This document shows positions 12,481 to 16,208 of a DNA stretch of 64,000 nt, in pieces; within the stretch, counting starts at the first letter, position 1, and each line of letters begins with the position of its first letter. The translations under genes and the position numbers were made by a program. The stretch is from Boletus sp. NGJ (lineage: Eukaryota; Basidiomycota; Agaricomycetes; Boletales; Boletaceae): assembly GCA_019096195.1 (NCBI GenBank), contig JAGTXK010000055.1, forward strand, positions 1,612,001 to 1,676,000. Reading direction: 5' to 3'. A model generated the notes under the pieces. It did not search any database. It had not been told where the DNA came from and saw nothing but the letters and a program-made list of their open reading frames with translations.

Positions 12481-15400
12481 ATGAGCTTTTTTTTTCGTCA
12501 CATTCCGACAGCGGAGGCCAACTTTTCGGTACAGAGTACTGCTGAAGCCGCAGACGAAGATACCCTTCTTGTCTCTCAGGATATTTGGGATGCCCTCTGT
12601 TTCTCCGATGAATCCCGTGGACTCGTATCCATAAAATCGAAGCGCCAGTACCCAACCAGGTCGCTTTCCGATCATCCCAGTGCTCTGACTTGCTGGGCTA
12701 TACGTGCTCCGACTGTGCGTATCTCCCTACAACTCCACATCCCGTCATTTATCGAAGTGAAGGTGTCGGAGATTGCTGTTCCGCCAGCTTGGCTGGTTAC
12801 TTATCCAACCATTTTCAAACCCTTCCAGATGAGTTTAGATGGATCCTATAAATCCGTCATTCTGTCTGTTGTAGAAAACATTACCCTGACGGAAGTCGTT
12901 TTAACTGCAAAGCATGAGGATGCCTACAAAGCGGCTTCCGTTCATGGAGCAGCGTTCGAGAATTGGTTCTTCGAATCCCATGTCATCATCCGTGATGGCG
13001 AGAATGTCTTCATCCCCCCGAGTATCTTCTCATGTAGTCCATCGGCTCAGCCTCCTTCGTCTCTCTTCGGATACACGGTCAGCCTCGCATTGCCTTACAA
13101 GCAAGGTGTCGCACAGCGAGGATCGACACGATTCATAGTGATGTCATACAGCGACTCGAGCGGAGTATCAGACAAAGTGGACAGCCGGGGTAGTCACGAG
13201 AGCTTGGAAATCAACGAATCATTTCTTATCTCTGCTGTGTTACCATCTCCGGAACCTTTGTCCCAAGCAAACGAGAGCGGTGAGGATATAGCAAGGCTGT
13301 GCGTCTAGCTTATGTCTAATATAGTTAAACTCTCAGGGATTATATTCTCTGCTAATGCACTTCAATCACCCATTGACGCTGACCTAGATCAGGTTACTGT
13401 CTATATTCGTACAAGTGACTTGGGTCCACTTGGAGTACTGAACGGTGATTGGGTGTGTTTTTTTATTCGTTTGTGCTTCCACATTCAACCCTAACCCCCA
13501 AGTCAGATTGTAGCTTCGTCAATCGACTCTTCGACGTGCCGTCTAGCGCGTATTGGCGCCCTCGATGAAGCCTTCAGCGATTTATACAGGCGATCTGCTA
13601 TGTTATCACCCACCCTTCTTCACAACTTGTGCCCACGCGGCCGTCGGCAAATCGTGCTTCGCGTGTCTCCACATGAAACGTGGGATGCTCCTGTTCCAAC
13701 TGCAAAGAGCATTACGTTGGCGAGGGTAGCTTCGCCGTTCTCAATCCATCGCCGTTATGAACCACTGTTTATGGATGCTTTACACGAATACTTCGGCTCA
13801 TCAAAACGTTTGGTCAAAGGCGGAGATATCATCCCACTACGGATCAACGTCGACCGTTCTCTGGATCCTCATCGCACCTTACGCCCAGGCGATTTCACAA
13901 GGAATGCAACGCACAACTGCTCAGACGTTCCGGTCTATTTTGTTGTTCGGAATGTGGATTATGAATCCGTCGCTGTCCAGACGCACGAGCAACCTTTTCC
14001 GGTCCCCTGCATTGGCTGCTTCGTCGATGCCAATGTGACGAAGATTATTCAAGTCGGAGTTGAGCATATTAGAGTTCCGGATATATACAACTATCATGAA
14101 CTTTGTTGGGTGTCATTTCGGTCATTTATGCTTCTCGTGTTGACTTTTCCCCTCAGGTCATGTGCGAGTGTCGTTGCCAACGGCGTTTGGAATCTCTCAC
14201 CAGATTTCTCAGTTGTCGAATGCAATGTCGCTTGACGAGGCAGCAAGCCTGGGTGTGCGGTCTACAGTCTTTATCACAGGATCAAGAGGAACGGGTAAAT
14301 TCTCAGCGGCAGTGCGCATTGCCCGTCATCTTCAGATGCATCTCGTGGAGGTCAGCAGTCAGTTGCCCACCTGGAATGTAATAAAGATGAAAGCTTTGCA
14401 GATCAATTGTTTCAACATTCTATCAGATACAACTGCCAAAACCGAGGTTTTACTACGAGAGCAAGTGGAAATCGCCATGTCCTGTTCGCCGTGTTTGGTT
14501 GTACTTCGCCATGCGGATGCATTGAACCACTCGGCAACCACAATAGTTGGTGCAGAAGGTTTATTTTAGTATATTTTTCCTACTTTCCCTGTATTCACTT
14601 GTATTCTAGTGTCATCCATCCTTCAAGCATTACAGCAGTGTATTGATGATGCAAGCAAGATTCAAGGGCAGAAGTGTGTCCTCCTTGGCATAGTGGGGCA
14701 GGGTAAAATACCTGAAAGTATCTCATTTAGCAATGAGATAGAAGTCAAGGTAGGAGTTGACTTTAGTGTTCACTGTTTTCTGAGATTTGGTATTCAGGCA
14801 CTGAATGAAGAGGAGCGTTTCTATCTGCTCTTGGAGCAGGTGGATAGTCATGGTGGATATCTTGCTCCAGATGTCTCTGTTGCTGCACTGGCCCAGCAGA
14901 CTGCAGCTTTGGTTGCCTTAGACTTGGTTAATCTGGTTCAAAAGACATGTCTTTGTGCAGTGATGAAGTAAGTCAAGTGTTGTAGTCAACAATTTGCTCT
15001 TGATTAATTGGATATAGCTCTGAAATACAACACCTGGTCACTCAGCCAGTTATGTCTGCCAAGCACTTTGACACTGCTTTGCATCAGGCTAGGACAGCCT
15101 TTGCTCAAAGTATAGGTGCACCCAGTATTCCAACAGTCCTTTGGGAAGATGTTGGAGGATTGGGTTCAGTGAAGGATGAGATTCTGGATACAGTGCAGTT
15201 ACCATTGGACCATCCTGAATTGTTTCAAGATGGGCTGAAGAAGAGATCAGGTTATTCAAGTTTATTTAATATGGTATTTCTATTGACTGTGAGTTTTGTT
15301 CTAGGTGTTTTACTATATGGTCCTCCAGGAACTGGGAAAACTCTACTTGCAAAAGCAGTTGCAAGTTCCTGCTCACTGAACTTTTTCTCAGTCAAAGGGC

Positions 15401-16208
15401 CAGAATTACTCAACATGTACATTGGTGAATCTGAGGCTAATGTTCGTAGAGTTTTTCAAAGGGCAAGGGATGCCAAGCCCTGTGTTATCTTCTTTGATGA
15501 GCTAGATTCAATAGCTCCTAAGAGAGGAAATCAAGGAGATTCTGGTGGAGTTATGGATCGCATTGTGAGCCAGCTTTTAGCTGAGCTTGATGGAATGAGT
15601 ACAGAAGGGATGGATATATTTGTGATTGGAGCTACCAATCGCCCTGACCTGTTGGATCCTGCACTATTACGTCCAGGACGGTGTGTTTAGTTCTGTTCAT
15701 AAAAATCTTAGCTGATTATTTTCACATAGATTTGATAGAATGCTCTATCTAGGGATCTGTGACACCCATGAAGCCCAACTTGATATTCTAAAGGCTCTTA
15801 CCCACAAGTTCAATTTACATCCCAATGTCAATCTGTCTTCAATCACTGCTCATTGCCCTTTCAGTTACACTGGAGCAGACTTCTATGCTTTGTGTGGTGA
15901 TGCATTACTTCATGCACTCTCATGCAAAGTTGCAGAGCTTGAAAAGGAAAGAGGTAATTGAGTTGTTATGGTTTGTAATTTCTGACAATTCATTTCATTT
16001 CTTTGCAGCTGAGTTAAATGCTCTTTCCAAATATCAGCAGCATCCTATTTCTCCTCAGCTTTTCATTTCTGAAATGAAATCAGAGGCAGATTTACAGCTG
16101 GTGGTGAAGATAGAAGACTTTGATCTTGCTTTGAATGAATTGATTCCAAGTATCAGTAATTCAGAGTTATTACATTATGCATCAATTCAAAAGAATTGGC
16201 ATGGGTAA
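12481..16208 (+). CDS. PEX6: Peroxisomal AAA ATPase PEX6
   Basis: With PEX1 this ATPase pulls the receptor PEX5 from the peroxisome membrane for recycling. The N-terminal region ([15 protein letters not shown] onward) is followed by the landmark [18 protein letters not shown]. The first AAA module has a degenerate P-loop region [13 protein letters not shown] and [15 protein letters not shown]. The second module has [21 protein letters not shown], Walker [15 protein letters not shown], the signature [17 protein letters not shown], Walker [16 protein letters not shown] and the arginine-finger region [20 protein letters not shown]. It ends [16 protein letters not shown], stop 16206-16208. About ten short introns keep the frame. 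Upstream of about 14.53 kb CpGs are frequent; from the intron 14559-14609 onward I count only six in 1.6 kb. Coding remains intact across this change. The start choice is forced by an in-frame stop just upstream. Confidence 0.92.

Follow-up and report, generated by a model that had tools for sequence, protein, structure and literature searches.

A sharp CpG border inside the PEX6 gene of Boletus sp. NGJ, probably the long-lived edge of a methylated, transposon-rich domain

We found that the PEX6 gene of Boletus sp. NGJ is divided into two parts by a sharp CpG border near position 14534 of the window, that is, of the whole 64,000-nucleotide stretch analysed here (contig JAGTXK010000055.1, positions 1,612,001 to 1,676,000). 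To the right of this border, as judged from the letters, only CpG is affected; none is left at a silent site, the introns and the 3' flank are stripped as well, CpGs survive in arginine CGN codons alone, and the other codon choices of the 3' half show no significant change. We consider it probable that the 3' half of PEX6 and its flank belong to a long CpG-methylated, transposon-rich domain in which silent CpGs decayed under purifying selection, and that the border at about 14534 is the long-lived edge of this domain.

PEX6 and the position of the border

The splice model of PEX6 was built by eye and its reading frame is continuous. All nine introns are 48-57 nt long and begin and end with GT...AG (52-57 nt for introns 1-3), and the predicted product of this model has 1085 residues without interruption. 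The shortness of the introns and the kinds of transposon in the window point to a basidiomycete. The features of the gene and its surroundings are as follows.

12481-16208, forward strand: PEX6, ten exons and nine introns, frame intact
12481-13279, 13337-13452, 13507-14104 and 14157-14558, forward strand: PEX6 exons 1-4 of the by-eye splice model, the CpG-normal half
14532-14550, no strand: CpG border, with 14532 as the last CpG on the normal side and the fitted step at 14534
14559-14609, forward strand: PEX6 intron 4, 51 nt, no CpG, just past the border, with the frame continuing across it
14610-14749, 14798-14967, 15018-15250, 15305-15680, 15730-15953 and 16009-16208, forward strand: PEX6 exons 5-10, the CpG-stripped half, including the second AAA module
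16209-16856, no strand: 3' flank of PEX6, 0 CpG in 648 nt (22.9 expected)
Upstream neighbour of PEX6, on the opposite strand: GAR1 (Pfam Gar1)

The gene was identified as PEX6 by the similarity of its second AAA module and C terminus to yeast Pex6 (PDB 8u0v_F, 8c0v_B), which phmmer matched to residues 355-1085 with an E value of 7.1e-139; in the second module we also saw by eye stretches that we take to be Walker A, Walker B and the arginine finger. The border falls at about residue 630 (exon 4 ends at residue 638), and a single alignment with yeast Pex6 crosses it, being weak on the 5' side and having a four-residue gap beside the border. Identity to the yeast protein was 47/268 aligned residues up to the end of exon 4 and 235/441 beyond it. 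In PEX6 proteins conservation is higher in the second module than in the first, and the higher identity of the 3' half was not read as a sign of mosaic origin. Compared with the yeast gene for this peroxisomal ATPase, only the base composition is unusual here. Among prokaryote contigs the search for relatives of PEX6 gave seven loci (L001-L007, 44-51% identical), which were left out of the comparisons, and among viral contigs it gave no match.

Both measures proposed by the initial annotation, the CpG observed/expected ratio (o/e) and GC3, fall across the region. CpG o/e was 0.78-1.12 in all fourteen 1-kb bins of 1-14000 and 0.00-0.12 in the five 1-kb bins of 15001-20000, and GC3 was 0.490 in the 5' half of the gene and 0.353 in the 3' half. 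Right of 20 kb and as far as 61 kb, CpG o/e did not exceed 0.40 outside an LTR element (0.83-1.11 in the bins of 26001-33000), and it was 0.34-0.48 at 61-64 kb. Between 14535 and 16856 we counted 6 CpGs where about 86 are expected; the first CpG after 14532 comes 284 bases on, and the longest of the 799 gaps on the left side is 117. The counts given by the initial annotation, namely 4, 2, 5 and 5 CpGs in the first four 60-base lines and only six CpGs after the cliff, were exact (the lines being counted from 12481, and the six lying between 14533 and the stop at 16208).

Protein and codon effects were removed by considering the synonymous CpG-able sites, at which the loss of a CpG would leave the protein unchanged (third-position C before G, and NCG codons). 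Such sites are still CpG in 92/211 cases in exons 1-4 (40/83, 2/14, 35/71 and 15/43 for the single exons) and in 0/117 cases in exons 5-10. On these sites a step (log-likelihood -141.6) was better by about 20 units than a monotone linear-logit gradient (-161.9), a flat model reaching -194.6, and on all CG/TG/CA sites of 9-20 kb the step was ahead of the gradient by about 70 units. The change described by the initial annotation as sharp, which it had set against a smooth gradient, is thus indeed sharp. The 2-unit support around the fitted step was 14532-14550 for coding sites and 14514-14589 for all sites. The narrowest width tried gave the best fit; logistic edges were disfavoured by 2 units once their 10-90% width exceeded roughly 200-260 bp, and by no more than 2.5-3.2 units at a width of about 440 bp. 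Between 9.0 and 14.5 kb CpG showed no fall as the border is approached (slope +0.03 per kb, p 0.25), and a mild softening just before it is possible because exon 4 and exon 2 are somewhat below exons 1 and 3.

The initial annotation had also placed the cliff at one intron and at the start of the transposon-rich domain. The border does sit at the end of exon 4, beside intron 4; since 27% of PEX6 lies within 30 nt of an intron, this coincidence carries little weight, and we dropped it as evidence of recombination. The second placement was mistaken, as the first recognised transposon begins at 16857, 2.3 kb further on, and the cliff is the start of the CpG-poor stretch. Scans for repeats, tandem repeats and tRNAs (the tRNA scan being designed for bacterial genes) showed nothing at 14.53 kb that explains the edge. 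The window contains no N, and no second copy of 14500-16856 was found within it beyond chance matches of 15-30 nt.

Restriction of the loss to CpG and the surviving arginine codons

Both strands were hit in the 3' half. At third-position C/T before G, C was present in 47/114 codons of the 5' half and 0/74 of the 3' half (TpG product), and in NCR codons G was present in 45/97 and 0/43, respectively (CpA product). In contrast, the A/G choice in non-NCR codons was the same in both halves (81/159 and 84/153, p 0.5), and the share of C in the C/T choice before non-G was 124/246 and 64/159 (p 0.053; p 0.38, 0.074 and 0.47 when split by the next base A, C and T), which hints at a slight AT drift. The silent-site tests and those on non-CpG classes together therefore show a loss restricted to CpG with TpG or CpA in its place, as in methylation-type decay.

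The same restriction was seen in codon usage as a whole. With all codons included, the difference between the halves was reached in 0/2000 permutations, whereas it was not significant after the CpG-dependent classes were removed (174/2000), nor was the purine/pyrimidine choice at fourfold sites (656/2000). The GC3 predicted for the 3' protein with the codon usage of the 5' half is 0.478, and after CpG decay it becomes 0.339 +- 0.020; CpG loss alone thus predicts the GC3 of the 3' half (0.339, with 0.353 seen). The non-CpG differences between the halves are small, not nil: in 14610-16208, GTA is used in 0/29 valine codons (9/58 in the 5' half) and GGG in 8/29 glycine codons (1/27 in the 5' half), and we see in CpG loss no explanation for either.

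In the 307 nt of introns 4-9, where 6.5 CpGs would be expected, there is none; the 163 nt of introns 1-3 contain 4 against an expectation of 7.5. Since introns 4-9 and the 3' flank are stripped too, the loss lies at the level of the DNA rather than of translation. Shuffling the own synonymous codons of the 3' half gave a mean of 28 CpGs and a minimum of 17 in 2000 shuffles, against the 6 observed. On both counts we rejected translational codon selection.

The CpGs that survive in the 3' half are the following.

14816, 15445, 15559, 15640, 15670 and 15679, forward strand: six surviving CpGs, all in CGN arginine codons

At a CGN arginine codon, either CpG transition (C to T or G to A) replaces the residue. 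All six codons are aligned with arginine in yeast Pex6, and 6/6 of the CpGs lie at positions 1-2 of arginine codons, compared with 31/123 coding CpGs in the 5' half, for which the probability by chance is (31/123)^6 = 2.6e-4. AGR codons make up 8/14 of the arginines in the 3' half and 6/37 in the 5' half (p 0.011); this lean is moderately consistent with a long exposure and may also be ancestral. At positions where yeast has arginine and this protein has not, we found Cys, His or Gln, each one CpG transition away from CGN arginine, in 5/11 cases in the 3' half and 1/9 in the aligned 5' part (from residue 355 on only; p 0.16), so that amino-acid scars at lost arginines of the 3' half are suggestive only. 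The frame remained intact despite the CpG loss and the retained CpGs are all at arginine codons, which points to selection over generations and is still compatible with repeated bouts of mutation. Of the first of the two explanations put forward in the initial annotation, methylation-driven decay with purifying selection saving the protein, the decay and the selection are strongly supported by these tests, and methylation is what we infer as the driver.

The transposon-rich domain and the LTR pair as a clock

The elements recognised to the right of PEX6 include the following.

16857-18463, reverse strand: Tc1/mariner copy a, with terminal inverted repeats and TA at both ends; 1 CpG; longest transposase frame found 259 residues
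25905-33072, reverse strand: LTR retrotransposon with RT, RNase H, integrase and chromo domain (Pfam) and CTTCC at both outer edges
49379-50955, forward strand: Tc1/mariner copy b, with an uninterrupted 350-residue transposase frame; no CpG; arginine 17/17 AGR

The LTR retrotransposon is CpG-normal (internal o/e 0.98, and 28/36 arginines of its longest frame are CGN) in CpG-poor surroundings (o/e 0.14-0.34, three bins on each side). Its two LTRs, 361 nt each (25905-26265 and 32712-33072), differ by 12 substitutions, 11 of them at CpG columns (p 1.5e-9), each being CpG in one LTR and TpG or CpA in the other; the divergence of this young LTR pair, which lies in the same domain as PEX6, is thus mostly due to transitions at CpG sites. 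Among the 23 CpGs present in either LTR, the LTR at 25905 is without 8 and the LTR at 32712 without 3, a loss of about 24% per lineage. If the same rate held in PEX6, the loss there would accordingly have taken some ten LTR ages as a minimum. The ratio of the CpG to the non-CpG rate has a point value of 86 and a lower bound of only about 15 when the counting error of the single non-CpG substitution is considered by itself, and both this ratio and the age estimate are rough because the non-CpG rate rests on one substitution.

Tc1/mariner copy a, the nearest transposon recognised beside PEX6, was rejected as the cause of the decay. Copies a and b are identical in all but 8 of 1576 aligned columns (gaps occupy another 30), so on the same rough scale, on which the PEX6 loss would take ten LTR ages or more, the insertion of copy a is recent and unlikely to have started the decay. 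By its sequence, the family seems to have moved recently and to be CpG-free already, and a CpG-free form of it might make a poor target for CpG methylation.

Two other regions were noted in the window. At 24798-25904 an inverted-repeat unit with 144-nt arms, 98% complementary, abuts the LTR element directly, and a larger inverted pair lies beside it (24388-24811 and 33064-33487). At 60424-63807 there are open frames in sequence of intermediate CpG o/e, one of them with a YVDD motif and, by eye, resembling a reverse transcriptase. A Pfam scan of three frames (61629-62651, 60424-61362 and 62650-63114) gave no match, and the region is possibly a DIRS-like element of intermediate age.

Origin of the border

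Previous studies reported that basidiomycete transposons carry CpG-type C-to-T signatures, with methylation followed by deamination as the likely cause (PMC4352252, PMC8063080). The transposons of Austropuccinia psidii are described as CpG-depleted, the older ones more so, which was attributed to methylation and deamination (PMC8063080), and in Ganoderma sinense a CpG-biased RIP-like change was reported in methylated transposons, methylation being almost only at CpG and highest in transposons (PMC4457147). The window resembles both in its CpG-specific transitions and in the stronger depletion of older elements, a young element being still CpG-normal here; unlike those transposons, half of a conserved host gene is hit, completely at silent sites, and the change stops at a line inside the gene. 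RIP-like CpG hypermutation, commoner nearer repeats, was reported in Rhizoctonia solani AG8 (PMC4014442), where CpG-to-TpG changes also affect gene-coding DNA; the changes described there are heterozygous SNPs that become more numerous nearer repeats, whereas those of PEX6 are fixed, form a step and leave no silent CpG in place. RIP leakage in Pezizomycotina (PMC4014442) is similar in that mutation reaches from repeats into neighbouring single-copy DNA, but it is CpA-biased as described, while the change in PEX6 is CpG-biased with the gene intact. Mutation directed at duplicated DNA and weakening with distance may or may not be involved here: PEX6 showed a step rather than a logit gradient, and a search confined to the window gave no copy of 14500-16856. 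In fungi described as having active machinery for cytosine methylation, genes near transposons are repressed (PMC4905642). Complete decay of half a gene is unusual, as gene-body methylation is described as generally negligible in fungi (PMC13297926), and among the matches listed from the open literature (for example the best 20 of 907, and 20 of 55) no title or opening of an abstract described a CpG cliff inside a fungal gene.

We propose that CpG methylation of the transposon-rich domain would extend 2.3 kb past the nearest recognised transposon into PEX6, that deamination of 5-methylcytosine over a long time would turn every silently changeable CpG into TpG or CpA, and that purifying selection would keep the PEX6 protein working meanwhile, so that the border near 14534 would be a long-lived edge of the methylated domain inside the gene. 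The agent was presumably 5-methylcytosine deamination rather than RIP-like bouts, the edge would be a chromatin border, and its position seems to have shifted by no more than roughly 200 bp while the decay went on. The initial annotation held that the sharpness fits either a 3' half of different source or a very stable border. A stable chromatin edge is the likeliest cause of the sharp border, and the different source found no support. If exons 5-10 had come from another species or a paralogue through recombination at an intron, the overall codon usage would differ as strongly as it does (0/2000 permutations) and a step adjoining intron 4 would be expected; a foreign origin would also leave the other codon choices free to differ, and outside the CpG-dependent classes they do not differ significantly (neither the remaining codon usage nor the fourfold choice), introns 4-9 and the 3' flank are likewise CpG-free, more than a quarter of the gene is as near to an intron, and one yeast alignment crosses the border, so that we regard this origin as very improbable. 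Gene-body methylation in animals and plants can begin inside a gene and spare its 5' part, and CpG loss does start well inside PEX6 with the 5' part spared. Methylation of the gene body as such, independent of transposons, is nevertheless highly unlikely here, because the loss runs on through the 3' flank into the transposons, no 1-kb bin in 1-14000 shows such a loss, and methylation of this type is reported to be negligible in fungi in general (PMC13297926).

Two further explanations accept a genuine decay or mutation and differ in what made the line. The line may be a crossover, the end of a gene conversion or a phase switch in the assembly, joining a decayed haplotype to an undecayed one of the same species, to which we give an outside chance: a breakpoint yields a step at the narrowest width tried for free, and two haplotypes are present in many fungi of this kind, yet nothing positive marks such a junction, the frame and one protein alignment running through the border and the window being without N, all of which is compatible with a switch. 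Methylation or mutation guided by homology (MIP- or RIP-like), in which the sequence beyond 14.53 kb has, or once had, a second copy at another site and the end of the duplication became the edge, has a slim chance; it would account for an edge unrelated to any gene feature, and duplication-detecting systems have been described in fungi (PMC4352252), but the window holds no second copy of 14500-16856.

Under the preferred reading, a long-lived edge of a methylated domain, we tentatively suggest that a heterochromatin or methylation edge was fixed in the body of a conserved gene, resolved to tens of bases and stable over many CpG half-lives, which would place one gene under two mutation regimes and leave its 3' half nearly CpG-free with possible arginine scars (Cys, His, Gln). 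Such a gene would be a built-in controlled experiment, with the same protein and the same transcription unit and CpG decay on only one side. In PEX6 one could then measure directly what heterochromatin costs a host gene in mutations, how old and how stable a methylation border is, and which changes are forced on a protein when CGN arginine codons are lost, with the young LTR element as a clock.
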